Below are positions 1 to 20,316 of a stretch of 32,364 nucleotides of DNA, piece after piece. This DNA is from Acidobacteriota bacterium (GTDB lineage: Bacteria > Acidobacteriota > UBA6911 > RPQK01 > JAJDTT01), in contig JAJDTT010000114.1 in NCBI GenBank assembly GCA_022827025.1, positions 1 through 32,364 on the forward strand, given 5' to 3'. Positions within the stretch are counted from its first letter, which is position 1; the number at the start of each line of letters is the position of its first letter. The notes beneath the pieces are model-generated. The model had not been told where the DNA came from and did not search any database. It saw only the letters and a list, made by a program, of their open reading frames with translations. A program made the translations under genes and the position numbers.

Positions 1-344
1 CCGATTGTCAGACTGGCATCATCTCTTCCATGTATTATTCCACCTTCGTGCCGATACCCTTTAATGGCATTCGGTCATCCAGTGCCGTGAAGATCATTCC
101 TTGCAACGCGTCGTCCAAGACGATTCTTCGGGAATCGGTTCAAGCGGAGAAAGCGATCCCTCGTGATTTCCTTTATCGTTCTCGACTCCACGCCCCCTGA
201 TCCCCTGGTTTTCGTTGGCCCTGACGAATATTGGATCTCGTTTGAGATGGTAGGGACCATACGACGTAACGTGCGATTCATCCGGGAAGCATTTTCCCGC
301 GTGTGGAGAGAAAACTCTCATCCCAGCAAGCGGAGCTGTTCCTG
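1..344. other. Upstream region without a supported gene
   Basis: No reading frame here has convincing protein character. The short frames on both strands lack recognisable motifs. The stretch ends with the likely ribosome binding site of the following protease gene, GGAG at 332-335, nine bases before ATG 345. I see no promoter or terminator I would defend. Confidence 0.5.
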
Positions 345-3300
345 ATGAACTACTGGGGGCCTTTGGCGGCGTTGTTGTGGTTCCTGGTCGCTTCGGGGGC
401 ACCGAAGTCGCCGCAATCGTTGGAAAATCCTCGTCCGTTATCCGAAAACCCCATCCAGCACCAGACGGAGGATTCGGAGGGGGAGGCGACCCTGTACTTC
501 CCGGATTACGTGGATGGGGGCGGGTGGTCGGTGCAGTTGGTGCTCAGCAACGTCGATCCGGACGCTACGGCCGACGTCCGGATTGAGGTCTACGATCCGG
601 ACGGCCGGTCGATCCTGGATTTGTTCGATTCGGATTTGATGTTGGAGATTCCGCCCCTGGCCAGCCGAGTCTTGAAGAGTGCCGGCTCCGGGGCCATTCG
701 TCGCGGTTGGATCCAGGTCGAGACCGGTGCGCCCACGATCAGTGGCCTGTTGACCTACCGGAACCTTCAATCGGGGGTCGAAGTCGGCGTCAAACCGGTC
801 GAGTTGGGAGAGCAATTCGCACTGTTCGTCGAGGAATCACCGACGGTCGGCTCCGGAGTCGCCGTCTTCAAACCGGACGCCCCTGGTCGCCTCGAACTTC
901 GGATCCGAGGCGAGGAGGGGAACGACCCGCTGGAGGGTGGATTCGTCCCTTGGGGGGATTTCCATCACGCGGCGCGCACACTCCCGGAATGGTTCACCGC
1001 GCCGGGAGTCGATACGGGATTCCTGAAGGACTTGCGTGGCCTGTTGTTCCTGGAGGCCGAGGACGAATCCGAGTTCGCCCCGCTCGGCTTGCGGTTCGGG
1101 AAGGGGACTTCTTCGCTCTCGGTGGTGCCGGCGATCCGGAACCCAGGTCGGGAACCACAAGAGACTCCCCTGTACTTTCCCGACTATGTGGATGGTGACG
1201 GATGGTCGGTGCAGTTGGTACTCAGCAACATCGATCCGGACGCTGCGGCCGAGGCCGTGGTGGAAGTCTACGATCAAAACGGCGGGTCGATCCGGGACCT
1301 GTTCGATTCGGAACCGACGTTGGAGATTCCGCCCCTGGGCAATCGAATCTTGAAAAGCTCCGGCATGGGGCCGATTCGGCGCGGATGGGTCCAAGTCCGA
1401 GCGCCCTCCGAATCGGTCAGTGGGTTGTTGACCTACCGGCAAGCCCAGACCGGGATCGAGGTCAGCGTCGAGTCCGTCGCGTTGGGGAGTCAGTTCGGCT
1501 TGTTCGTCGAGGAATCGGAGGCGATCGGGGCGGGACTGGCCCTGTTCAAACCGGACGCCTCTCCGAGCGTCGAACTCCGCCTCCGCGACGAAGCGGGAAA
1601 CGACCCGTTGGGCAACGTGTACGTCCCTTGGGGGAATTTTCACCAGCGGGCGCGCACGCTCCAGGAATGGTTCGACGTGGCTGGAGTCGATGCGGAATTC
1701 CTGACGGACTTTCGGGGGTTACTGTTCCTGCGAACCGCAGACGGATCCTTGTTCGCCCCACTCGGGTTGCGGTTCGGCAAAACAAGCCGTTCGCTTTCGG
1801 CCGTCCCGGCGATCCGGATTTCGGAAGGAAGGGGAATCGACGGAGGCCAGGCCCCTCCCCCGGCGGTGACGATCTCGGCTTCGCCAAGCTCCATCAATCG
1901 GGGACAGAGCACAACGTTGACGTGGTCGTCCACGAGTGCGGAAAGTGCGGAGATCACCCAGGGCATCGGGGCGGTGCCCACTTCGGGCTCGCGGCAGGTG
2001 ACGCCGAACGTCACTACGACCTACCGCATCACGGTGCGTGGGGCGGACGGAGAGACGGGGACGGCATCGGTCACGGTGACGGTGGTCAGCGAGCGGGTGG
2101 TCCTGAGAGCGCTTTTCGAAGCGCTGGATGGACCGAATTGGACCCATGGCGACAACTGGCTGACGGACGCCCCCCTGGAGGAGTGGTACGGGGTCGAGGT
2201 CGATAGTCTGGGCCGGGTGGTCGGACTGAGGCTGACCCGGAACGGATTGACCGGGGAGATCCCGCCGGAGTTCGCCTCGCTCCCCTACCTGAGGGTCTTG
2301 GACCTCAGCGGGAACCAACTGAGCGGACCCCTCCCGCCCGAGTGGGGCCAGCTGTCCCAGGTGCAGCAGTTGTACCTCGTGAATAACCAATTGACCGGGC
2401 CGCTCCCGCCCGAGTGGGGCCAGTTGTCCCAGTTGCAGTACTTGAACCTCAGCGGGAACCAACTGAGCGGACCCCTCCCGCCCGAGTGGGGCCAGCTGTC
2501 ACAGGTGCAGCATTTGGACCTTGTGGAGAACCAACTGAGCGGACCCCTCCCGCCCGGGTGGGGCCAGCTGTTCCAGTTGCAGGGTTTGAGCCTCGCGGGG
2601 AACGAACTGAGCGGACCCCTCCCGCCCGAGTGGGGCCAGCTGTCCCAGGTGCAGCAGTTGTACCTCGTGAATAACCAATTGACCGGGCCGCTCCCGCCCG
2701 AGTGGGGCCAGCTGTCCCAGGTGCAGTGGTTGGGCCTCGCGTTGAACCAACTGAGCGGCCCCCTCCCACCCAGGTGGGGCCAGCTGTCCCAGGTGCAGCA
2801 TTTGGACCTCACGAATAACCAACTGACCGGGCCGCTCCCGCCCGAGTGGGGCCAGTTGTTCCAGTTGCAGGGTTTGAGCCTCGGGGGGAACGAACTGAGC
2901 GGCCCCCTCCCGCCCGAGTGGGGCCAGTTGTCCCAGTTGCAGGGTTTGAGCCTCGGGGGGAACGAACTGAGCGGACCTCTCCCGCCCGAGTGGGGCCAGC
3001 TGTCCCAGTTGCAGCGTTTGTACCTCTGGGGGAACCAACTGGGCGGACCCCTCCCGCCCGAGTGGGGACCGCTGTCCCAGTTGCAGGATTTGTACCTCGG
3101 GGGGAACGAACTGAGCGGCCCCCTGCCGCCCGGGTGGGGCCAGCTGTCTCAGTTGCAGCGGTTGTACCTTGGGGAGAACCAACTGAACGGCCCCCTGCCG
3201 CCCGAGTGGGGCCAGCTGTCCCAGTTGCAGCGGTTGGACCTCGACGGGAACGAACTGAGCGGCCCCCTCCCGCCCGAGTGGGGACAGCTGTCCCAGTTGC

Positions 3301-5105
3301 AGGAATTGGACCTCAGCTGGAAACAACTGAGCGGCCCCCTGCCGCCCGAGTGGGGACAGATGTCCCAGTTGCAGGGTTTGAACCTCAGCGGGAACCAACT
3401 GAGCGGCCCTCTCCCATCCGAGTGGGGGCAGCTGTCCCACCTGGAAAGTCTGGGACTGACCAACAATTTCGGGTTGTCGGGGACCTTGCCATCCAGTTTG
3501 ACTTCTCTCCGTCAGCTCGAAGAACTTCTGGCGAGAGGCACGGAGCTCTGCGCGCCTTCCACCACCGACTTCCAGAGCTGGCTGGCTGGCATTCGAACCC
3601 GGCGGATCGCCCCCTGTGTCCTGCCGATGGCGTACCTGACTCAAGCCGTGCAGTCGCGGGAGTATCCGGTGCCGCTGGTTGCGGGCGAGAACGCCCTGCT
3701 CCGGGTGTTCGTGACGTCCACACGTGCAGGCGTCGCGACGATTCCACGAGTCCGAGCCAGATTCTACGTCAACGGCCGGGAGATCCACGTCGTGGACATT
3801 CCTCCCAAGTCAGCCGCCATCCCGAACGAGGTCAATGAGGGGAATCTGAACGCCTCCGCCAACGCCACGATTCCTGGCCGGGTGGTGCAACCGGGGCTGG
3901 AGATGGTGGTCGACATCGACCCGGATGGAGCCCTGGGTTCCGATCTGGGTGTGACGAAGCGGATTCCGGAGAGTGGCCGCTTGGCGGTCGAGGTTCACGA
4001 GATGCCCGTCTTTGACCTGACGGTGATTCCATTCCTGTGGACCGAGAAACCAGACTCGACGATCGTGGAGGTGGCCAAGCGCATGGCGGCGGACCCGGAG
4101 AGCAACTCACTCCTCTGGCACACTCGCACACTGCTTCCGATCGGAGATCTTGAGGTGAGCGCTCACGAGCCGGTGATGAGTTCCAGCAAGAACAAATTTG
4201 CGTTGCTGGACGAAACCGGAGCGATCCGCGCCATGGAGGGCGCCAGTGGCTACTACATGGGAATGATGTCAGTGTCATCGCTCAATGACGGCGGGGTGGC
4301 GGCCCAGCCCGGCAAGATTAGTTTCGCGGGGCCTTGGTCAGAAGTCATAGGTCACGAACTCGGGCACAATTTGAATCTTGGACATGCGCCGTGCGGCAAT
4401 CCTGATCCTGACACTCTGGACCCGTCTTTTCCCGAGACCAATGGATCCATCGGAGCTTGGGGGTACGACTTCCGTGGGGCAGGCCGACTGGTGCCGCCGA
4501 CTCGACCCGAGCTGATGAGCTATTGCCACCCCAACAAGTGGATCAGCGATTACCATTTCACCAACGCGCTCCGTTACCGCCTGTCCTCCGCCGCCGAGGG
4601 CAGTCTGTCGTCCCTGGTCGCCGCCCCAGCGAGATCGCTCCTGCTTTGGGGCGGCGTGGACGCTGCCGGCACACCGTTCCTGGAACCCGCATTCGTGGTG
4701 GAGGCTCCAGCGTCACTTCCGCGCTCCACTGGTGAGTACCGGATCAGCGGACGACGCGCTGGCGGGGACGAGTTGTTCTCGTTGCCGTTCGCGATGCCAG
4801 AGGTGGCCGACGGAGACGGTCGATCCTCCTTCGCTTTCGTCCTGCCCGCGAAGCCCGAATGGACTGATACCTTGACCAGCATCACCCTGTCCGGACCCCG
4901 TGGCTCGGTCACCCTGGATCAAGAGACCAACCGGCCGGTCACCATCCTGCGAAATCCACGGACTGGACAGATTCGCGCTATCCTGCGCGGCGCGGCAGCC
5001 ACCCCCCCCAACGTGGACGCCACAGTGTCGGCGCTGTCGTTGGACCAGGGATTGGAAAGGTTGACCAGCCGTGGGATCCCGGATCCAGAGGACTGGAAGC
5101 GATAG
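345..5105 (+). CDS. Secreted LRR-containing zinc metalloprotease with duplicated FPDYV domain
   Basis: A predicted exported protease of about 1586 residues. The frame opens at GTG 303, but ATG 345 is preferred: GGAG lies nine bases upstream and the protein then begins with a typical signal peptide (MNYWGPLAALLWFLVASGA). Domains in order: two copies of a roughly 217-residue module starting LYFPDYVDG (about residues 49-266 and 275-491); an Ig-like module (about 505-582); an LRR region with N-cap (about 586-1080) containing fifteen near-identical 24-residue repeats; and a C-terminal metzincin-like protease. The zinc motif is HELGHNLNLGH (His1337, His1341, His1347), followed by a Met-turn in LMSYC (Met1391). 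The protease resembles M66/reprolysin-type bacterial proteins, but the exact family is uncertain. Repeat modules before a protease suggest adhesion to or recognition of an external ligand; this is inference. The same FPDYV module recurs in the protease at 5992-8571, so the two genes are related in architecture. Confidence 0.88.
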   Translation: MNYWGPLAALLWFLVASGAPKSPQSLENPRPLSENPIQHQTEDSEGEATLYFPDYVDGGGWSVQLVLSNVDPDATADVRIEVYDPDGRSILDLFDSDLMLEIPPLASRVLKSAGSGAIRRGWIQVETGAPTISGLLTYRNLQSGVEVGVKPVELGEQFALFVEESPTVGSGVAVFKPDAPGRLELRIRGEEGNDPLEGGFVPWGDFHHAARTLPEWFTAPGVDTGFLKDLRGLLFLEAEDESEFAPLGLRFGKGTSSLSVVPAIRNPGREPQETPLYFPDYVDGDGWSVQLVLSNIDPDAAAEAVVEVYDQNGGSIRDLFDSEPTLEIPPLGNRILKSSGMGPIRRGWVQVRAPSESVSGLLTYRQAQTGIEVSVESVALGSQFGLFVEESEAIGAGLALFKPDASPSVELRLRDEAGNDPLGNVYVPWGNFHQRARTLQEWFDVAGVDAEFLTDFRGLLFLRTADGSLFAPLGLRFGKTSRSLSAVPAIRISEGRGIDGGQAPPPAVTISASPSSINRGQSTTLTWSSTSAESAEITQGIGAVPTSGSRQVTPNVTTTYRITVRGADGETGTASVTVTVVSERVVLRALFEALDGPNWTHGDNWLTDAPLEEWYGVEVDSLGRVVGLRLTRNGLTGEIPPEFASLPYLRVLDLSGNQLSGPLPPEWGQLSQVQQLYLVNNQLTGPLPPEWGQLSQLQYLNLSGNQLSGPLPPEWGQLSQVQHLDLVENQLSGPLPPGWGQLFQLQGLSLAGNELSGPLPPEWGQLSQVQQLYLVNNQLTGPLPPEWGQLSQVQWLGLALNQLSGPLPPRWGQLSQVQHLDLTNNQLTGPLPPEWGQLFQLQGLSLGGNELSGPLPPEWGQLSQLQGLSLGGNELSGPLPPEWGQLSQLQRLYLWGNQLGGPLPPEWGPLSQLQDLYLGGNELSGPLPPGWGQLSQLQRLYLGENQLNGPLPPEWGQLSQLQRLDLDGNELSGPLPPEWGQLSQLQELDLSWKQLSGPLPPEWGQMSQLQGLNLSGNQLSGPLPSEWGQLSHLESLGLTNNFGLSGTLPSSLTSLRQLEELLARGTELCAPSTTDFQSWLAGIRTRRIAPCVLPMAYLTQAVQSREYPVPLVAGENALLRVFVTSTRAGVATIPRVRARFYVNGREIHVVDIPPKSAAIPNEVNEGNLNASANATIPGRVVQPGLEMVVDIDPDGALGSDLGVTKRIPESGRLAVEVHEMPVFDLTVIPFLWTEKPDSTIVEVAKRMAADPESNSLLWHTRTLLPIGDLEVSAHEPVMSSSKNKFALLDETGAIRAMEGASGYYMGMMSVSSLNDGGVAAQPGKISFAGPWSEVIGHELGHNLNLGHAPCGNPDPDTLDPSFPETNGSIGAWGYDFRGAGRLVPPTRPELMSYCHPNKWISDYHFTNALRYRLSSAAEGSLSSLVAAPARSLLLWGGVDAAGTPFLEPAFVVEAPASLPRSTGEYRISGRRAGGDELFSLPFAMPEVADGDGRSSFAFVLPAKPEWTDTLTSITLSGPRGSVTLDQETNRPVTILRNPRTGQIRAILRGAAATPPNVDATVSALSLDQGLERLTSRGIPDPEDWKR
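2331..3410 (+). repeat. Array of fifteen 72-bp tandem LRR-coding repeats
   Basis: Fifteen consecutive units of exactly 72 bp each encode a 24-residue leucine-rich repeat of pattern LPPEWGQLSQLQxLxLxxNxLSGP. Unit length is constant (15 x 72 = 1080 bp) and the DNA itself is strongly conserved, while variation concentrates at the positions between the scaffold leucines. More diverged LRR units flank the array on both sides (ending IPPEFASLPYL upstream and beginning LPSEWGQLSHL downstream). The pattern resembles plant-type LRRs. Near-identity at DNA level points to recent expansion or ongoing homogenisation. Confidence 0.95.
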
Positions 5106-5991
5106 GGGCTGATCGTCCTTTCAGAGAACGAACTCCGCCGGGGGACACCCGTTAACTGAAAATAGCGGGCGTCGAGCACGTTGCCCCGTGTGAGTCGAAA
5201 CTATCCCGCTGTGGACGTTAATGCCCACGATGAGCCTAACCTGCGCAATGCCCCTCTTTGCACCAGACCTGTACCCGCGCTCACGGGAGAGGCACGGGTT
5301 CTCGACTCCTACGCCAGCGTGACGGCCGTGCTGAAGCGGGCGATCCGGTGCCAAACGTTGGCAGACGCAGAAAACCGCTCCGTCGGCGAGGTCATCAACG
5401 GCTATTGCAGTCGGCGGGCAACTCGATTGCTGGAGGCTGGTTTTAGCCGGTGAAAAGTGGTGTCTCGTGTCGATCAGGGAGCGCACATGGGACAATGGGG
5501 GGCAGATGCACGAAAGAGGCTTTTCGAGGTGCACGGACGCCTTTCTCTAGCCGGCTCTGCCCGTTTCGGTTACGGCTCGCCTCGCGGCGACGCGGCGCCC
5601 GCACGGGGAAATCGGAGGTGGACGGGAGCGCCCCCCTTTTGCATCCCGGATCGGCACAGCAGGGCAGGTTGATGTGCGCTGACCGTGCGATCGCCTGGGA
5701 GGGTCGCTCCCGTCCCATTCATCCCTGCGGGAAGTCCCCGATGAAGACTACCGAAGAGACGATTCGGACGATTCGCTGGATCGAGTGTCAGATTTCTGAC
5801 GGCCATTGATAGCTGGGTCGTCTAGTGAGCCTTTGACATCGGAGTGTGTCATGAACGAGATAGCCTCTCTTTGGAGTCCCGCCGCAGTTCTTCTGCTAGC
5901 AGCAGTCAGCCGGTCCCTGCCGGACCGGCCTTCGTGGCGACGGACTCGGCAACTGCGGCGGCGTGGCATGGACGACATGGAGGCCCGGCGG
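5106..5991. other. Gene-poor interval between the two proteases
   Basis: No supported gene. A plus-strand frame at 5181-5453 (90 codons) is the longest simple candidate but has no motif and no clear ribosome binding site. The last part, from ATG 5851, is open and in frame with the downstream protease; it would encode a short hydrophobic stretch (SPAAVLLLAAV) and then an Arg-rich segment containing LRRRGMDDMEARR. GGAG lies shortly before ATG 5851, so an N-terminally longer protease cannot be excluded. The DNA at 5953-5975 closely matches 8755-8777, downstream of the protease. Confidence 0.4.
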
Positions 5992-8571
5992 ATGCATCAA
6001 CCGGCTACCATTGGCTCATCACGGCTGGACTGGCTTCGACTCTTCCCCCTCGTAGTCGCACTCCTGGGCACCTCTGCGCTTTCGTTCACGCAGGCTACGG
6101 CCGACGTCGATCTGTTCGTCGCCGTCGAAGATGACGCGCAGCGTTCACGGTCAGATGCGGCGACCGTGCGCGAGCGCCTTGTCGCGGTCGATCTTGAGCT
6201 GCTCGATGCGGCCCGCACCAACGTCGGCCTCCCGAGCACGGGAGAGAAGGTGCTGCGGCTGAACCTGTTCGACGACGCGATGCTCGATGCCGTGATCGAC
6301 CGAACGGGGCCGACGTCAGTCGGCTACTGGCTGGGTGGACATCTGGCGGGCGACGAGCTGAGTAGCGTGACCCTTGTCGTGAACGGTGAGGTGATCATGG
6401 GGACGGTGCGAAGTCTGAGCGCGATGTACGCGATACAGTCGGCCGGCAACGGCGTGCACGCCATTCGCAAGATCGACGTAGAGACACTCCCGTCGTTGGA
6501 GGCTGATTCCACTGCGGCCGGCTTCTTGGTGGCGACTCCACCTGACCATGTGCAGTCCGTCCGCCTGCCGGGTGCCACCCGCGACGCGACGGCTGAGGCT
6601 CGACCAGAGGAGGACGGCTCACGTATCGATGTCCTCGTCGTCTACACGCCGGCGGCGACGGATGCCGTGGGTGGGCACGAAGCGATCAAAGCGCGGATCG
6701 ATCTCTGGGTCACCGAAACCAATCAGGCGTACGCGGACAGCGGCGTGATTCAGCGGCTCAATCTGGTAGCGGCGTTGATGGTGGACTACGAAGAGGCACG
6801 ACCGGAAGGGGGCCTTTTGGCCGGTTCGGTGGATCTGAATCGCCTAGTGCGGCGGGAGGACGGCTACCTGGATGAAATCCACGACCTCCGTGACCGGTAC
6901 GCGGCCGACATCGTGACCTTTGTTGGTCATTATGCCGACGGCACAGGGGGAATCGCAGCCTCCTGGTGTGAGGGACACGCACCGTCGAGGGGATGTGCTC
7001 CGGAGGCCTGGATGGGTTTCAACCTTGTGGATCACGAGGTGTCGAGCACGACGTTCGCGCACGAACTCGGGCACACGATGGGACTTAACCACGACCGGTA
7101 CGCCGCAACCCGTTGTCCGCAATGCAGCGTCCCTCCAGAACAGGATCTGAGCAAGTGGAAGCCGTATCCTTACGCATTCGGCTACGTGAACCAGCGACAG
7201 TTCGAGCCGGATGCGCCGGAATTGAGCTACTGGCACACGATTATGGCCTACAACTCGCAATGCCGTGATGCCGGGATACGGTGTGGTAAGGTACTTCGCT
7301 TTTCCAATCCGGATCTGTTCTGGAACGGCGATCCGATGGGCGTGCCTGGCGACGAGCCGTCGTCGGACGTGACCGGCCCTGCGGACGCTCGGCGCACACT
7401 CAACGAGACGCGACACGCCATCGCCAACTTCCGTGTGGCGCCGTGTCTACGGGAGGGGGAGAAGATCAGCCTCCAAACCAGCAACGGGCAATTCCTCACG
7501 GCAGTGTACGGTGGCGGCGGCCCGGTTCTGGCCAACCGGGACGCCCCGCACGCTTGGGAACACTTCGAGCTGATGGATCTCAACGGCGGCTGTGTGGAGT
7601 CGGGCGACGCCGTGGCATTTCGCACGTTTGACGATTTCTACCTGAGCGCACAACCGGGCGGTGGGGCGGCGCTCGAAGCGATGGCGAGGTCGGTGGGACC
7701 ACGGGAGACGTTCACGGTGCATCGGCGTGCCGGCCAAAGCGAGGTTCGAAGCGGCGACTTCATCGCGCTCGAAGCACCGGACGGCCACTACGTTGTTGCC
7801 GTGCAGGGTGGCGGCGGCGCAGTCAATGCGGGAGGCACACATGTGGAAGCGTGGGAGACATTCAAGATCACCGTCGCTGCCACGAATGCGTTTGAAGGTG
7901 TCCCGGACGCGCTCATTTTCCCCGACTACGTGGAGGGGGAGGGGTGGTCCGTGCAGTTCGTGCTCGGCAACCTCAATCCGAACCGGACGGCTCCGGTCGT
8001 CGTCGAAGTCTACGATCAGCAAGGTGAGCGGGTTTCGGCGTTCTTCGATTCCGGAGACCGCATCACGCTTCCCGCCTTGGGCAGTCGCATCCTGAGGAGC
8101 TCCGGCACGGGGACGATCCGGCGGGGCTGGATCTCGGTCCGAAGTGACGTGGACTCGGTCCGTGGATTGTTGACCTACAAAAACGCCTCGACAGGGATCG
8201 AGGTCGGGGTCGAACCGGTCGAGTTGGGAGGGCACTTCGCCCTTTTCGTCGAGGAATCGAGAGACGTTGGAACCGGATTGGCAATCTTCAAACCGGACCC
8301 GGACTCCACGATCGAATTCCAAATCCGGGACGAGGAGGGGAACGATCCGATCGGGGGACACCCTCACAGCCGGGGAAATTTCCAACAATTGGCTCTCACC
8401 GTTCCGGAATGGTTCAGTGGCGCGACGCAGGCATTCCCGAAGGAGTTTCGGGGGCTGCTGTTTCTGCGGGGCGTGGATGGTGCTCCGTTCGCCCCGGTGG
8501 GGCTACGCTTCGGGAAGCGGACAGACTCGCTATCCACGGTGCCGGTGGTACCGGCCCCGGGCAAGAAATGA
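5992..8571 (+). CDS. Secreted M12B-like metalloprotease with fascin-like trefoil and FPDYV domain
   Basis: A predicted exported protease of 859 residues. ATG 5992 is chosen because GGAGG stands eight bases upstream and the protein then has a signal peptide (hydrophobic core LFPLVVALLGTSALSF). After a propeptide-like region, the catalytic domain (about residues 211-480) is reprolysin-like: HELGHTMGLNH supplies His357, His361, His367 with catalytic Glu358, and the Met-turn is in IMAYNSQC (Met418). Many cysteines in this domain suggest disulfides. Next comes a beta-trefoil of fascin type (about 485-632), seen in repeated motifs such as SLQTSNGQFL, AFRTFDDFYLSA and ALEAPDGHYVVA; such trefoils often bind sugars or other ligands. 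The C-terminus (about 641-859) is the module beginning LIFPDYVEGEGW, also present twice in the upstream protease. The frame is open further upstream, to ATG 5851 and beyond. Confidence 0.88.
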   Translation: MHQPATIGSSRLDWLRLFPLVVALLGTSALSFTQATADVDLFVAVEDDAQRSRSDAATVRERLVAVDLELLDAARTNVGLPSTGEKVLRLNLFDDAMLDAVIDRTGPTSVGYWLGGHLAGDELSSVTLVVNGEVIMGTVRSLSAMYAIQSAGNGVHAIRKIDVETLPSLEADSTAAGFLVATPPDHVQSVRLPGATRDATAEARPEEDGSRIDVLVVYTPAATDAVGGHEAIKARIDLWVTETNQAYADSGVIQRLNLVAALMVDYEEARPEGGLLAGSVDLNRLVRREDGYLDEIHDLRDRYAADIVTFVGHYADGTGGIAASWCEGHAPSRGCAPEAWMGFNLVDHEVSSTTFAHELGHTMGLNHDRYAATRCPQCSVPPEQDLSKWKPYPYAFGYVNQRQFEPDAPELSYWHTIMAYNSQCRDAGIRCGKVLRFSNPDLFWNGDPMGVPGDEPSSDVTGPADARRTLNETRHAIANFRVAPCLREGEKISLQTSNGQFLTAVYGGGGPVLANRDAPHAWEHFELMDLNGGCVESGDAVAFRTFDDFYLSAQPGGGAALEAMARSVGPRETFTVHRRAGQSEVRSGDFIALEAPDGHYVVAVQGGGGAVNAGGTHVEAWETFKITVAATNAFEGVPDALIFPDYVEGEGWSVQFVLGNLNPNRTAPVVVEVYDQQGERVSAFFDSGDRITLPALGSRILRSSGTGTIRRGWISVRSDVDSVRGLLTYKNASTGIEVGVEPVELGGHFALFVEESRDVGTGLAIFKPDPDSTIEFQIRDEEGNDPIGGHPHSRGNFQQLALTVPEWFSGATQAFPKEFRGLLFLRGVDGAPFAPVGLRFGKRTDSLSTVPVVPAPGKK

Positions 8572-9641: not shown

Positions 9642-10523
9642 TCAGCGGACAGTGCTTCGGCTTCGGAACTGAATTCCGATGGGTTTGTCCCCGGTCGATG
9701 AACAGCCGCTCAGCCATTTCTTGGCATTTGCTAAGCCGAATGGTTTTCCCGCAGGACTCCTGTACATCTCCGCGAGAAACTCCGGAGAACACCCGCAGGT
9801 TCCCCGTTTTAATTCTTTATTCGTTACCCCGGGACGGCTTTGGAACCCTGTCTGTGGGAAGTGGCCGTACTTTTCATCCGCGCTCATCCAGATAAGGTCC
9901 CAAATAGCGCGGTTGCCGCCGCAAATGGTTTCCGCATCTGCCCACGGGAGACGCGGAGGATCCGGGTCCATGCTGCCATCCGGGAGGAGAGCACCCCGCA
10001 GGTTTGCACCGGCAAGAGAAGTATTTTCGAGCTTCGCGCCGCGCAGATCCGCATTCTTCAGATTGGCGCCGGCCAGGTTCGCACCCCGCAGGTCCGCCCC
10101 GGTCAAGTCCGCGCTTCCCAGGTTCGCGCCCGCCAGATTCGCCTGGGCCAGGTCCGCGTCCTTGAAGTTGGCCCGCCGCAGGTCTGCGTCCAACAGGAGC
10201 GCCCTCTGGAGGACCGCCCGCTGGAAATCCGCCCCCGTGGCCCTCAATTGACTCAGGTTGGCCGTGGTCAGGACCGCAGATTCCAGGTTGGCCCTCGTCA
10301 AGTCCGCAGATTCCAGGGCCGCCTTCGTCAAGTTCGCCGCGCTCAGCGTGGCTCCACTCAGGTTGGCCTTGGTCAGGTCGGCGTCGACCAAGATCACCCC
10401 GTCCAGGTTCACCCTCGCCAGATCCTCGCCGGCCAAGTACCGGCCCGTCCAGTCTTTCACCTGAGCCAAAACCGCCGGAGTCGCCGTCAGGAGTAAAACC
10501 GCCGTCAGTACCGTTCCGTTCAT
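9642..10523 (-). CDS. Exported pentapeptide-repeat protein
   Basis: A 293-residue protein whose central part (about residues 28-185) consists of pentapeptide repeats of A(D/N)LxxA type, for example LTKANLSGATLSAANLTKAA and LAQANLAGANLGSADLTGAD. Such repeats form a right-handed quadrilateral beta-helix. The start is ATG 10523, not the longer frame start at 10640: GAGGAG stands just upstream and the protein then begins with a signal peptide (MNGTVLTAVLLLTATPAVLA). The C-terminal 105 residues are not repeats; they contain Cys residues (ETICGG, GTCGCSPEF, LSGCSS) and Trp-rich segments and are unrecognised. Some pentapeptide proteins protect gyrase, but export makes that role unlikely here. The function is unknown. 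Confidence 0.85.
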   Translation of the reverse strand: MNGTVLTAVLLLTATPAVLAQVKDWTGRYLAGEDLARVNLDGVILVDADLTKANLSGATLSAANLTKAALESADLTRANLESAVLTTANLSQLRATGADFQRAVLQRALLLDADLRRANFKDADLAQANLAGANLGSADLTGADLRGANLAGANLKNADLRGAKLENTSLAGANLRGALLPDGSMDPDPPRLPWADAETICGGNRAIWDLIWMSADEKYGHFPQTGFQSRPGVTNKELKRGTCGCSPEFLAEMYRSPAGKPFGLANAKKWLSGCSSTGDKPIGIQFRSRSTVR

Positions 10524-11440
10524 GAATCTCCTCGCTGTCAATAATGTCGTGTTGAAATGTACGATAATCCTTCTCTCTCTGTCGAGTTGGGCAACTTGGA
10601 CAAGTGGGCTGAAACGATCGACATTCTCCTCTCTGGACATTTCACTGTGACGCTACTGGATAATTATACGGAGGAGGTTCCAGACCGCAAAGCCGCCCCG
10701 CTGGCTACCTTTGTTTTTCCAGTGGATCCGTTACTTCTTCGTTGGGATCGTGACACTCTGCATGGCTGGCTATGTAACGTATTGGGGCGCCGGGGGATCG
10801 TAGCCACCCGACGGACAAACAGGGCAGAAGGGACCCCGGGCCTTGCAGCCCGTGGACGGCCCCGGCGGGCAGGCCGCAATCGCAGCACCACCAGGAGATT
10901 TCATCGTAGGCCCGCCGTTTCTGGTAGAGGGTGTTTTGTCCGGACGGACAGCGGCAGCGGGGCCAGCCCTCGGTCCGGTTCGGCTCGGGGATGGGCCGTT
11001 GGCGTCATGCCCTGTCTGCACCGCTCGTTGCGCTACCAGTTCGAGGCGCGGCTGGAACACGGGCAAGCGAAGCTGGAAGGGCTCCTGGAAGACTTGCGAG
11101 CCGCAATCACTCGCCAAAACGTCGCGTGAGGCTCGAACCGCCGTCGTGCATACGCGGCCTTTGCCACGTTGGCCAGGGGCCAAGTTTTCGCCCAATCGGG
11201 CGATTTCCAGAAGTTCCGGAAGAGATCGCCGTATCTGCCCCCCGCGACTCCAGACACCTCGTCCCGATCCTCGCGCGAATGTGTTACACTCAATCCAACA
11301 TCGGCCAACTAAAGAGTTGAAATGCTGAATCCTCCTTACAGAGTTGAAATCGGCGCCGAGGATCTCTCCTACTCACGCGCTTCCCGGACTGTGGTCTAAG
11401 GCGCTTCTTCTCAATCTTCCCCACTTAGAGGACTGCCGAA
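10524..11440. other. Divergent intergenic region with degenerate coding traces
   Basis: This interval lies between divergently transcribed genes. No intact gene is supported. The minus strand from about 11004 to 10770 has protein-like but frameshifted Cys-rich sequence, listed separately. A plus-strand frame from ATG 11007 to TGA 11129 encodes a 40-residue charged peptide (RYQFEARLEHGQAKLEGLL) that could be helical but overlaps the start of that region. Two copies of AGAGTTGAAAT occur close together shortly before the next gene, of unknown meaning. Confidence 0.35.
10770..11004 (-). pseudogene. Degenerate Cys-rich (zinc-knuckle-like) frame with one frameshift
   Basis: Reading the minus strand downward from 11004, one frame gives EGWPRCRCPSGQNTLYQKRR, then AYDEISWWCCDCGLPAGAV. 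Near 10830 the sensible reading moves by one base into a second frame ending FCPVCPSGGYDPPAPQYVT and a stop at 10770. The paired CxC, CCxC and CPxC motifs across the two frames suggest a small metal-binding protein broken by a single-base indel. No start codon is evident: the first frame is closed upstream by TGA at 11005-11007. I do not recognise the family. Confidence 0.3.
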
Positions 11441-13141
11441 ATGTACAAAACCATCTCTGGATCAAAACAACGAAGCCCCTCAGCGCTGGGCGCGACGGTG
11501 TGCTGGGTGAGCCTCCTGTTAGTACCAGGACAGTCTCTATTGGCCGATGTCGTCCAGCCCACCGGGAAGCCGGTGCGGGGGCATATTTCAAGCGGATTTG
11601 GCTACCGGAAGAGCCCCTTCACCGGCAAGAGGGAGCATCACAACGGCGTTGACATCGTTGCGCCACGAGGGGCCAAGGTGGTGGCCACCGGCGACGGGAC
11701 AGTGATCCGCGCCGGCTGGCTGAACGGTAGTTGCGGCCGAGGGGTCGAACTCCAGCACAGCTTTGACTACATCACGACGTATTGCCACATGAGTCGAGTC
11801 CGTGTCACAGTCGGCGATCGGGTCAGGCAAAGCGCCATCATCGGCAACGTCGGTTCCACCGGTCGAAGTACCGGCCCTCACCTGCACTACGAAATCTCTC
11901 GGAAAGGCCGGTTCCTGAACCCGAAGTCCTTCATGGGTCGAGGTCTAACGAACGCCAACATGGCGGGCGTGGACGGGAAGGATGCGGTGAGGATGGTCTG
12001 GAAAGTGCGGCCCAACACTGGGGTTAAGATCCCAGATCCGTACGCAACCCTCCTTAGGAAAGTCGGCTACTTCAACTACGTGAACAACAACATCGACCAG
12101 ATCGACTTCGTCGAAGTGCGTACGCTTGCCAGGAGCGACGGTACGCTTGGTGTTGGATTCGCGGGTGTGGTTAAAAACCACCGGATCGCAAAGGTAGCGA
12201 CCCTGGGTCGTTCCCCACTGGAAATCACCTCAACGATCGTTCACGAGGCGGCACACCTTGAGCCCTGGTCCCGTTCGAAGCGATATGCGTCGCAGGAACA
12301 AGCGTATAGAAAGCAGTCCTGGTTCTTGCAGCGTTCGGGAAATGCGCAGGCTAAGGAAATGGCAACGCTCCGGGAGGACAAGAAGCGGTTGCGGGAAGAT
12401 GTGAAGCAAGCGGAAACCCGCGCGAAGTCCCACGAGGCGGAATTGGCGCAGCTTCGCAAAAACGAGCGGCGGTTGCGAGCCGACGTGAAGCAGCGGACAG
12501 CCCGCGAGAGGTCCCACAAGGCGGAATTGGCACAGCTTCGCCGGAAGATGCCGCTGTTGCAAGGAGACATCAAGCGGTGGAAGGCCCGTGCGGAGTCCCA
12601 GGGAGCAGAATTGGCGCAGCTTCGCAAAAACGAGCAGCGGTTGCGAGCCGACGTGAAGCAGCGGACGGTGCGCGAGACGGCTTCTATCAGAGCCTTCCGG
12701 GATCGCGTGGACCGGATCGAGGGGAATCTCGACAGGCTCCGGGACACGAGGCAACTTCACGGAGCCGGTCCGCCGGACGACGCTGAAGGTCAGATTCGCC
12801 TGGGTGTCTCCTATCGATACGGCGAGAATGGTTTTCCGAAGGATCACCAGCGAGCAGCTCGATTTTTCCGGCTCGCAGCCCAGCAAGGCCACCCTGAGGG
12901 CCAAGTCTACATGGGAATTCTATACAGCTGGGGGGAAGGGGTCCGAAAGAACGACTTCGAGGCGGCCCGGTGGTTCCGGCTCGCAGCCCGGCAGGGCCAC
13001 AATCACGCTCAGTTTCACTTGGGTCTTGCATATTGGGACGGCGAGGGGGTCCCGCAGGATTATCAGGAGGCTATCCGGTGGTTGCGGCGCGCAGCGCACC
13101 AGGGGAACCTTGCCGCCCAGAGGTTCTTGGCCAACATCTGA
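11441..13141 (+). CDS. M23 peptidase with second HExxH motif, coiled coil and Sel1 repeats
   Basis: A 566-residue exported protein probably acting on peptidoglycan. ATG 11441 follows AGAGGA by eight bases, and the N-terminus has a signal peptide (hydrophobic core ATVCWVSLLLVPG). Residues about 40-165 are an M23 (LytM/lysostaphin-type) endopeptidase: His67-x3-Asp71, His116 and HLH at 147-149 match the family zinc and active-site pattern. Residues about 200-300 carry a second zinc-peptidase signature, HEAAH (268-272), with Glu286 in SQEQAYRKQSW as a plausible third ligand. Next, residues 325-408 are three 28-residue repeats of strongly charged coiled coil (ELAQLRKNE, RLRADVKQ). The C-terminus (about 449-566) holds three Sel1-type repeats (AEGQIRLGVSYRYGE and similar), known as protein-interaction scaffolds. 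The combination of two putative peptidase sites with Sel1 repeats is unusual. Confidence 0.88.
   Translation: MYKTISGSKQRSPSALGATVCWVSLLLVPGQSLLADVVQPTGKPVRGHISSGFGYRKSPFTGKREHHNGVDIVAPRGAKVVATGDGTVIRAGWLNGSCGRGVELQHSFDYITTYCHMSRVRVTVGDRVRQSAIIGNVGSTGRSTGPHLHYEISRKGRFLNPKSFMGRGLTNANMAGVDGKDAVRMVWKVRPNTGVKIPDPYATLLRKVGYFNYVNNNIDQIDFVEVRTLARSDGTLGVGFAGVVKNHRIAKVATLGRSPLEITSTIVHEAAHLEPWSRSKRYASQEQAYRKQSWFLQRSGNAQAKEMATLREDKKRLREDVKQAETRAKSHEAELAQLRKNERRLRADVKQRTARERSHKAELAQLRRKMPLLQGDIKRWKARAESQGAELAQLRKNEQRLRADVKQRTVRETASIRAFRDRVDRIEGNLDRLRDTRQLHGAGPPDDAEGQIRLGVSYRYGENGFPKDHQRAARFFRLAAQQGHPEGQVYMGILYSWGEGVRKNDFEAARWFRLAARQGHNHAQFHLGLAYWDGEGVPQDYQEAIRWLRRAAHQGNLAAQRFLANI
12413..12664 (+). repeat. 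Three 84-bp repeats encoding a 28-residue coiled-coil unit
   Basis: Three consecutive 84-bp units encode 28-residue coiled-coil segments sharing AELAQLR and, in units one and three, RLRADVKQ. Units one and three are nearly identical in DNA, while the middle one is diverged, which suggests duplication or partial gene conversion. Four heptads per unit is consistent with a regular coiled coil. Confidence 0.85.
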
Positions 13142-17512: not shown

Positions 17513-18175
17513 ATGAGTCTTCGAAAGAGCTTGTTGGTCTGCGGTTGCTTTCCGGTTCTGGTCCTGATGCCCTTTCTGCTCGCTGAGACCGGCGACGCGA
17601 TCGCGGTCGAAATCTCGCCCGGCCGGATCCAGGTCGCGGCCCCCGAGTGCCTCACTTTCCTCTTCAACCGGATGACTCCGGTTCCGGTCGGGATCAAGAA
17701 CCGGACGGGGAAGGACGCCGAGCTTGAGATATCCACGCGTTCCGACGTCTTGGGCCTGGTTCCGTTTCGGGGAAAGGTTTCGGCCGGCGGGAATGGGGAA
17801 GGGGAGCAGTTGGTCCTGATTCCGCTGATGGCCGGAGAGTGGGATGCCGATCTGATCCTGACGTCCGGGGACCGGACCCGGTCTTGGACCCAACGTTTCT
17901 GTGTCTTGCCGCCGGCCCGATTGCACGCTCGGGTCCACGATTCGGGCCGGGTGGCGGCCGCCCGGGTCCGGGTGACCGGTGCGGACGGACGTGAGTACAC
18001 TCCGGACGGACACGATGCGGGTGAGTTCCGGACGGAGGGGCTCTTCGAGTTGCTGGTCCCGGCCGGCGCGGCCACGGTATCCGTACGGTCGGTGGATGGA
18101 GACGGGCCGGCGCGCGAGACTCGAGTCGACCTTCCGGTGAACCGCACCATATTCATCGAGTTGCCGCTCCCATGA
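17513..18175 (+). CDS. Exported protein of unknown function, coupled to CehA-like gene
   Basis: A 220-residue protein with an N-terminal signal peptide (MSLRKSLLVCGCFPVLVLMP). The rest is beta-rich. The first half (about residues 30-130) looks like an Ig-like or cupredoxin-like module (VPVGIKNRTGKDAELEIS). The second half resembles a carboxypeptidase-regulatory-like beta sandwich (ARVRVTGADGREYTPDG, FELLVPAGAATVSV). No catalytic motif is seen. GGAGG precedes ATG 17513 by only three bases, which is short. Its stop overlaps the start of the next gene by four bases (ATGA), and the next protein contains similar beta-sandwich segments, so the two products probably work together outside the cytoplasm. 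Diverges from the MetE-like operon. Confidence 0.75.
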   Translation: MSLRKSLLVCGCFPVLVLMPFLLAETGDAIAVEISPGRIQVAAPECLTFLFNRMTPVPVGIKNRTGKDAELEISTRSDVLGLVPFRGKVSAGGNGEGEQLVLIPLMAGEWDADLILTSGDRTRSWTQRFCVLPPARLHARVHDSGRVAAARVRVTGADGREYTPDGHDAGEFRTEGLFELLVPAGAATVSVRSVDGDGPARETRVDLPVNRTIFIELPLP

Positions 18176-20316
18176 AATCTCGCGGCATGGTTTGGATTCT
18201 GCTGATCCTGGCCCAGGTTTCTCCGGCGGCGGGCGCCCGCGCCTGGAATCCCTACGGTTTGAGCGAGGATGAGGTGGATGCCCTGCGGGTCCGGCATCCG
18301 GCCCTCCGGGAATTCGCCGAGTTCTTTAACGCGGTTCTTCGACATGAGGATGCTCCCCGGGACGAGAACCTCTCGGTCTACCGTCCGATCCGGCGACTCG
18401 CCATGCGGCGCAGGACGGTTCGAGGCTCCTGGTCTCCCGGCGCGCAGGACCAGATCCAAGGCCAGGTCAGCCAGGCTCTCTGGCAACTGACCTCACCCGA
18501 GTTGACCCGGATCGATCTGAACCCGGGAGTGCGGCTGACACCTCCCACGCAGGCGCCCGTCTTCACCATGGGGCTGGAGAACCGGGTTCTGCTGCTGCTG
18601 CGCAACAACCACAGGAACCCGGTGGAATTGAGCCTGTCCCCGAACGGCAATACGCTTCATTTTCCGCCTCGCGAGGCGTCTCTGGCTCCGGGACAGGTGA
18701 CGGGAATACAGCTTCGGGTCTGGGGAAGGGGCGCCGACTCGCTGGCTCTGCGGCTGGACGTCCAAGGGAAGACGGCCGAACTCTCATTGCCGATCCGGTG
18801 GCGCGAGGCGGCCCGGTTGGAACTGACGGTCAAGACGCGCGACCGAGCCGGTTTCCTGCCTTCCCGAGTCTACGTGGTGGGGTCGGATCGCCTGGCTCGC
18901 GGTCCGGCGGGGACCTTTCTGCGAAGTACCTGGACGGGAGGGCACCAATACTTCCATACCCGGGGAGCCAGCTCTCTGGTCCTGCCCTCGGGACCGGCTC
19001 GCATACTGGTGGTTCATGGGTTCGAGCATGCACCCGTGACCGTGGACGTGGATCTGGAGCCGGAAGGCAACAGGGTGGAAATCCAACCTCGGCCGACAAT
19101 CGATTGCGCGTCTCGCGGATGGTATTCCGGAGACATCCACATCCACCTCAACCTGGTGCACAAGACTCTGGACCAACTGGTCTTGACCCAAGATGCCCTC
19201 CTCCAGGCAGAGGCCGAGGACCTGGATGTCTCCAACCTGTTGGTGTGCAACTCCCTGGGCTCCATCACCTTCGATCGCAACCGCTTCACCGGGTCGGTCC
19301 ATCCACTCTCGACGGCCGACCGGATTCTGTATTGGAACGAGGAGGTCCGGGCCTCCCTCTACGGCCATTTTGCCGCACTCAATCTCAAGACGTTCCTCGA
19401 GCCCCACTTCACCGGGTTTCGGAACACCGACCACGCCTTCGACTATCCCTCCAACACCATTCAGGCCCGAAAGGGCCGGGAACAAGGGGCCGGGATCTTC
19501 TACGTTCATCCGGTCCACAATCCCGAAGCCAACGACCTGGCCGGGTCCAGCGCCAAGGCGGTTCCCGTGGACGCGGCGCTGGGCCTCGTCGACGGACTGG
19601 AAATCCTGGGGTACGGCCACACCGCCGCCTCCCTGCGCCTCTATTACCGGTTGTTGAACTGTGGTTTCCGGCTGGCCGCTGCGGCGGGCACCGACGCCTT
19701 CAACAACATCCGGCGCCACAAGGTCATCGGTGCCGACCGCGTCTACGTGCATACGGGGGACGACTTCGACTATGGCTCCTGGGTCCAGGGGCTCAAGGCA
19801 GGCCGAAGCTTCGTCACCAACAGCCCCCTCCTGTTCTTCGAGGTCAACGGCCGCTTGCCGGGATCGGAACTGGAACTGGACGAGCCGGGCCAGGTTCGGG
19901 TCCAGGTGGAAGCTCATTCCCATGCCCCCATGGATCGACTCGAGCTGGTCTTCAACGGGACGCCGATCCGCACGGTGAAGGCATCGGGAAACGGGAACCA
20001 TTTGATCTTTCGGGGCTCGCTTCCCATCACCGGGAGCGGGTGGCTGGCTGCGCGGATCCAGGGCGGCCCTCACCGCCTGGTCGTCAACAACCCGGACCTG
20101 TTTGCCCATACGACGCCCGTGTACCTGACCGTGGGGGGCAAGCCGTATGCGGACCCCGAATCCGTGACCCACTTTTTGCGTTGGATCGGAGATTTGCGGA
20201 AGCGGGCGCTGTCCGAGGGGTTGTTCCAGGAACCGATTCACAAACGCGAGGTCCTGGATCAGTTCCGGCGGGCCGAAGCCGTCTACCGGCAGAAGTTGGC
20301 TTCCGTCGAGGAGTAA
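18172..20316 (+). CDS. CehA/McbA-family metallohydrolase, exported
   Basis: A 714-residue exported protein with signal peptide (MKSRGMVWILLILAQVSPAAGA). The N-terminal 300 residues are beta-rich modules. The catalytic part begins around residue 315 with GWYSGDIHIHL, the metal-binding DxHxH motif (Asp321, His323, His325) of the PHP-like CehA/McbA family. Later motifs FYVHPVHNPEA, LEILGYGHTA and AAAAGTDAFNN supply further metal ligands, and WVQGLKAGRSFVTNSPLLFF is typical of the family. CehA and McbA hydrolyse carbaryl, but most relatives have unknown ester or phosphoester substrates, so a pesticide role should not be assumed. The start overlaps the upstream gene by four bases. The stop lies four bases from the stop of the convergent gene. 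Confidence 0.87.
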   Translation: MKSRGMVWILLILAQVSPAAGARAWNPYGLSEDEVDALRVRHPALREFAEFFNAVLRHEDAPRDENLSVYRPIRRLAMRRRTVRGSWSPGAQDQIQGQVSQALWQLTSPELTRIDLNPGVRLTPPTQAPVFTMGLENRVLLLLRNNHRNPVELSLSPNGNTLHFPPREASLAPGQVTGIQLRVWGRGADSLALRLDVQGKTAELSLPIRWREAARLELTVKTRDRAGFLPSRVYVVGSDRLARGPAGTFLRSTWTGGHQYFHTRGASSLVLPSGPARILVVHGFEHAPVTVDVDLEPEGNRVEIQPRPTIDCASRGWYSGDIHIHLNLVHKTLDQLVLTQDALLQAEAEDLDVSNLLVCNSLGSITFDRNRFTGSVHPLSTADRILYWNEEVRASLYGHFAALNLKTFLEPHFTGFRNTDHAFDYPSNTIQARKGREQGAGIFYVHPVHNPEANDLAGSSAKAVPVDAALGLVDGLEILGYGHTAASLRLYYRLLNCGFRLAAAAGTDAFNNIRRHKVIGADRVYVHTGDDFDYGSWVQGLKAGRSFVTNSPLLFFEVNGRLPGSELELDEPGQVRVQVEAHSHAPMDRLELVFNGTPIRTVKASGNGNHLIFRGSLPITGSGWLAARIQGGPHRLVVNNPDLFAHTTPVYLTVGGKPYADPESVTHFLRWIGDLRKRALSEGLFQEPIHKREVLDQFRRAEAVYRQKLASVEE

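Follow-up and report, generated by a model that had tools for sequence, protein, structure and literature searches.

The Anabaena sensory rhodopsin-associated homology (ASRAH) domain is a small beta-sandwich that was first recognised in a partner of a bacterial rhodopsin and is predicted to bind sugar, and de Souza and colleagues (2009) described an ASRAH superfamily of three families (PMC2739507). The hallmarks of the superfamily are a nearly absolute Asn that ends strand 2 and a well-conserved Trp that opens strand 1, and the extracellular ASRAH proteins carry dyads or tetrads, with amidase-associated tetrads in Chloroflexi (PMC2739507). Sugar binding was argued from structure, operons and domain context; the dimer interface forms part of the proposed binding cleft, and Thermotoga TM1070 is a homotetramer (PMC2739507).

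We analysed a stretch of 32,364 nucleotides from an Acidobacteriota bacterium (contig JAJDTT010000114.1; the window). The original prediction had placed a module, here named after its FPDYV motif, three times in two metalloproteases, in duplicate at the N-terminus of the first (ORF1) and as a single copy at the C-terminus of the second (ORF2). DNA repeats D2-D4 and the translations bore out the three copies and their arrangement and gave their exact ends (Table 1), and all the quoted signatures were found, in the same order, in a 218-residue alignment of the copies. Over these 218 residues the two other window copies were 65% and 54% identical to copy 1, and identity among the three ranged from 54% to 65%. 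The DNA of copy 1 and copy 2 differed by codon position at 56, 40 and 73 sites, as is expected of coding DNA. A profile of the three window copies gave E-values of 1e-122 to 1e-127 in their own genome, which holds 8 strong and 3 weak FPDYV copies by this profile.

Table 1. Positions of the FPDYV copies and of the other domains of the two carrier proteins in the window
Feature	Position	Strand	Remarks
ORF1, putatively secreted LRR metzincin	345-5105	+	likely start ATG 345, open frame 303-5105; hydrophobic signal-like N-terminus MNYWGPLAALLWFLVASGAPKS
FPDYV copy 1, ASRAH-like dyad	489-1142	+	DNA repeats D2-D4, translation, 218-residue alignment, profile
Copy 1, N-terminal ASRAH-like unit	489-809	+	residues 1-107, with invariant Asn21; AF2, Foldseek, hhalign
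Copy 1, C-terminal ASRAH-like unit	810-1142	+	residues 108-218; hhalign against N-half and against ASRAH
8-residue linker, copy 1 to copy 2	1143-1166	+	same length in 17/19 tandem proteins
FPDYV copy 2, ASRAH-like dyad	1167-1820	+	halves 1167-1487, 1488-1820; repeats, alignment, profile
PKD/Ig-like linker domain in ORF1	1851-2084	+	K319L-like, under cut-off
Leucine-rich repeats in ORF1	2091-3536	+	72-nt period
M66-like metzincin core in ORF1	4329-4511	+	HELGHNLNLGH at 4353-4385
ORF2, putatively secreted reprolysin-type metzincin	5992-8571	+	likely start ATG 5992; open frame 5806-8571
M12B reprolysin-like catalytic domain in ORF2	6619-7134	+	HELGHTMGLNHD at 7060-7095
DUF7910 domain in ORF2	7462-7740	+	second, weaker copy after it, to about 7900
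FPDYV copy 3, C-terminal ASRAH-like dyad	7909-8562	+	halves 7909-8229, 8230-8562; repeats, alignment, profile, model

In ORF1 the tandem copies are followed by a PKD-like domain, leucine-rich repeats (LRR; a 72-nt array) and an M66-like metzincin, and in ORF2 a reprolysin-like metzincin and DUF7910 precede the single copy. A signal-like hydrophobic stretch stands after each likely start, ATG 345 in ORF1 and ATG 5992 in ORF2, and we infer that FPDYV proteins are exported by signal peptide. The two catalytic domains had been called clearly different. Pfam does assign them to separate families, M66-like in ORF1 and M12B reprolysin in ORF2, yet each is of the metzincin type, having HELGH plus a Met-turn (ELMSYC, TIMAYN), and they matched each other by BLASTP at E 2e-4. 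With the Peptidase M66 model ORF1 scored 19.4 bits, just short of the gathering cut-off of 20.6; its paralogues scored 19.4-33.1, and four of them (L048, L047, L042 and L069) exceeded the cut-off. The last of these, L069 (genome G003, ORF 129-6515), holds two LRR plus M66-like metzincin units in a single open frame, with HELGH motifs at residues 1130 and 1983. At 2167-3474 ORF1 has at least 15 of these repeats. Their period is exactly 72 nt and most are 73-83% identical in DNA to a reference stretch, which suggests a recent expansion or homogenisation of the array.

Within the 218-residue FPDYV unit a segment of about 108 residues is duplicated, so that the unit consists of an N-half and a C-half. 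When a 52-row alignment was cut at residue 108 and its halves were aligned by hhalign, the N-half matched the C-half with a probability of 96% and a score of 49.2, against controls of at most 13.6 in 40 column shuffles (probability in the shuffled controls at most 0.9%) and 7.1 with a reversed profile. This corrects the domain boundary, as the true unit has about 108 residues instead of the 217 that had been proposed. The N-half alone gave a confident AlphaFold model (pLDDT 88, pTM 0.79) with exactly eight strands and is predicted to fold by itself. The whole copy was modelled with 8 + 8 strands at moderate confidence (pLDDT 74.7, pTM 0.60), so that the packing of the two halves within the dyad stays putative, and it is in this lower-confidence model that the eight strands of the C-half were seen. 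Structure prediction thus returned an all-beta, eight-stranded sandwich for each half.

The search of the N-half model against the whole PDB by Foldseek placed three chains of Thermotoga TM1070 (1nc7) at ranks 1-3, with TM 0.75-0.77, rmsd 2.5-3.1, probability 1.00 and E 1.7e-5 to 4.4e-5, and the Anabaena sensory rhodopsin transducer entries 2ii7-2iia next. The whole-copy model matched 1nc7 and 2ii8 across one half, also with probability 1.00. For hhalign we combined four ASRT orthologues with eight repeats from a pair of secreted Acidobacteriota proteins, each with four repeats, into an ASRAH alignment. Its profile matched the N-half with a probability of 93.7% and a score of 42.7 and the C-half with 85.2% and 34.6, while the best score in 100 shuffles for each half was 15.0, and a profile from the ASRT orthologues alone gave 81% for the N-half and 63% for the C-half. 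The Pfam ASRT model came close to its cut-off of 25 with 23.5 bits for one family member (in L131), whose second half it matched. Because of the TM1070 match of the N-half, the profile support for both halves and the duplication, each FPDYV copy is very probably an ASRAH-type dyad, and the N-terminal tandem of ORF1 is then four ASRAH units.

The Asn that ends strand 2 was present as N21 in 51 of 51 N-halves and as Asn in 39 of 51 C-halves of the wider family, with Lys replacing the second-half Asn in the window's own copies. The strand-1 Trp was not conserved, its position being mostly Leu (27/51; L-Y-F-P versus W-Y-F-A). Since this residue is not conserved, the FPDYV family falls outside the three published ASRAH families and is a divergent secreted sister family of them. 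The His/Cys pocket residues of the ASRT type were also absent (equivalent positions S14 and V18), and for these two reasons any ligand would differ. The organisation known from extracellular ASRAH proteins was found, with internal duplication and tandem dyads whose spacer was exactly 8 residues long in 17 of the 19 tandem proteins.

The closest PDB structures, TM1070 (PDB 1NC7) and the Anabaena transducer (PDB 2II7; ASRT PF07100), thus have in common with the FPDYV units the eight-stranded sandwich, the Asn ending strand 2 and profile homology to both halves. However, TM1070 and ASRT are single-domain intracellular homotetramers with a SHEshChhN motif, whereas the FPDYV units lack this motif and the strand-1 Trp and are fused as dyads in multidomain proteins with signal-like N-termini, which we take to be secreted. 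ORF1 is also similar to the Chloroflexi amidase-associated tetrads and to two Acidobacteriota proteins, L132 and L133, in being secreted and tandem, with four units attached to a catalytic or other region, but tetrads of this type consist of four similar single repeats with W-x-FAEG, whereas ORF1 has two dyads with unlike halves. Both L132 and L133 were found in one genome (G151) as secreted four-repeat ASRAH proteins with W-x-FAEG. The likeness to CBM4/CBM22 lies in the proposed role as accessory module of a secreted enzyme and in weak fold matches to CBM22 (4xup, 1dyo). These matches reach a TM of about 0.35-0.4 alone and the strand order of CBM4 differs from that of ASRAH (PMC2739507), and on present evidence we do not regard these modules as homologues.

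Family profile A2, built from the window copies and 16 divergent members, gave E-values of 1e-40 to 1e-70 across the window's class. At E<=1e-6 it matched 47 of 297 Acidobacteriota genomes, 29 of these in the window's own class, with copy counts that are lower bounds (at most ten candidates scored per genome). By the profile of the three window copies, three same-genus genomes had 17, 5 and 25 matches. Searches of phages, plasmids and viral contigs yielded no relatives. Partner domains in the genus included an M60 peptidase (L072), an S9-type hydrolase (L057), DUF3472 (L064), LDL-receptor-b propellers with or without LRR and CARDB (L073, L076) and fn3/cadherin (L058), together with many LRR-metzincin proteins and with M66-like, M12B and DUF7910 domains; an NHL-propeller protein (L050) carried a weaker, divergent copy pair. 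The module was N-terminal, internal or C-terminal according to the protein. In the main genus subfamily it was mostly an N-terminal tandem right behind the signal peptide and sometimes internal, and weak divergent copies stood at the extreme C-terminus in L061, L062, L063, L050 and L051. This range of positions and partners agrees with the mobile, autonomous domain that had been postulated, here all-beta and in secreted proteins. In a tree of 58 copies, whose deep forks lack resolution and which gives no dates for moves, first, second and single copies grouped far above chance and the labels switched at least 13 times, a pattern that would fit repeated duplication, loss and fusion, with several independent changes between single and tandem forms. 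Records with close copies were Bryobacterales or Terriglobia MAGs, some with the bin names APA and RHO3, which suggest sponge sources like those in PMC8163846.

The expectation that the module had no named family held, as no Pfam or NCBIfam model covered the three window copies and PHROGs likewise gave scores at chance level. A PDB sequence search with a broad family profile returned chance matches alone. The Pfam model DUF5719 (PF18986), with which the family has the dyad organisation in common, matched 7 of 19 family members weakly and exceeded its cut-off in 21 of 40 relatives, nearly all on family-profile regions and in either half; it was unmatched in all 14 control genomes. A same-genus paralogue (L068) scored 26.6 bits against the gathering cut-off of 26.2, which neither window protein reached; neither was reported at E<=1, and copy 1 was unmatched. 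The window copies further differ from DUF5719 in being attached to hydrolases and LRRs. We presume that DUF5719 is the ASRAH dyad lipoprotein of actinobacteria that PMC2739507 places at the cell surface; among the papers searched, none named DUF5719 and one used the term ASRAH as it is used here. In a sequence search with the N-half profile the MpAFP RII adhesin (4p99) reached E 2e-6, but this value adds up the scores of four nearly identical repeats, which give 8-11 bits apiece and independent E-values of 4.2 or worse, and we discarded the match. We also discarded the matches with the best E-values for the whole-copy model (PAD3, SIDT1 and viral fibres), as they had rmsd 14-22 and a TM of about 0.2. 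A truly novel beta fold or family without known relative, which the original prediction had envisaged, would account for the chance-level scores of the window copies and for the lack of a convincing PDB sequence match, but it is contradicted by the structure matches to TM1070 and ASRT and by the ASRAH profile homology, the DUF5719 and ASRT models reach relatives within the family, and we consider it highly improbable. A hit to an existing family had been named beforehand as evidence against the original prediction; there is one at the level of the superfamily, ASRAH, and none to a named sequence family.

Cell-surface anchoring, ligand binding and sorting had all been suggested as roles, and of these we favour ligand binding; terminal sorting fits less well with a domain that is not tied to one end of its proteins. 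That the module holds the protein on the producer's envelope or marks a secretion route is unlikely: every fused protein looks secreted, the weak copies in five proteins are C-terminal and the ASRAH dyads of actinobacteria have been predicted to be lipoproteins of the cell surface (PMC2739507), but the N-terminal and internal positions in the main genus subfamily do not suit such a signal, the terminal transmembrane segment, basic tail or processing motif typical of known sorting signals is missing, and no NCBIfam sorting model matched the window copies. We are equally doubtful of a mainly structural role, in which a rigid oligomerisation or spacer unit would project or tetramerise the enzyme without binding a ligand. 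The near-invariant residues of the wider family are structural Gly, Asn and Phe and not a catalytic or binding set, TM1070 is tetrameric (PMC2739507) and the linker length is constant, all of which such a role would explain. Against it, a large number of polar or charged residues (D6, E98, E115, E116, R140, D146, E167, R200, K203 and others) vary little or not at all in the genus subfamily despite different partners, beyond what a spacer needs, although this argument is weak because the genus copies are closely related.

The explanation that we find probable as a whole is that the FPDYV dyad is an ASRAH-fold, non-catalytic accessory module that binds ligand for secreted hydrolases and LRRs. 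After export by the signal peptide, the sandwich units would bind a ligand, for which a glycan on a bacterial or host surface is the most likely candidate, and the bound module would keep the hydrolase or LRR region that is fused to it close to the substrate. The two dyads of ORF1 and the short constant linker would place four ASRAH units in one chain and so mimic the TM1070 homotetramer within one polypeptide. We infer glycan binding, tetramer-like packing and targeting from these comparisons. For the binding accessory role by itself the chances are about even or slightly better, and it is the most likely role because of the ASRAH context and because the partners (M60, M66-like, LRR, propellers) have glycoproteins as substrates or contain binding repeats. 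A more specific and speculative version, which is improbable as it stands, is that the tandem dyads form single-chain pseudo-tetramers with composite clefts for animal-host glycans, and that a host-associated genus has expanded the module to about 25 copies per genome and uses it to direct LRR proteins and M60/M66-type glycoprotein peptidases to the surfaces of its host.

The FPDYV domain is thus a mobile, autonomous, unnamed module whose fold was already known, and its copies make up a large family that is new within an established superfamily. A large unannotated Acidobacteriota family of secreted modules gains a fold and a superfamily, a fourth family joins the three that have been published for ASRAH, and the ligand-binding hypothesis is now testable for many 'hypothetical' proteins. 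A Pfam entry or clan joining ASRT, DUF5719 and the FPDYV family would annotate many proteins together.

Elsewhere in the window, positions 18172-20316 encode a predicted protein of 714 residues without a Pfam match at E<=1e-3. It carries the motif WYSGDIHIHL, which we take to resemble those of PHP/CehA-type metallohydrolases. The gene at 11441-13141 has the unusual combination of an M23 peptidase, a long coiled-coil-like stretch and C-terminal Sel1 repeats, and between it and the metzincin genes a pentapeptide-repeat-like protein, with A-N/D-L-x-x runs in its translation, lies on the minus strand (9642-10640).
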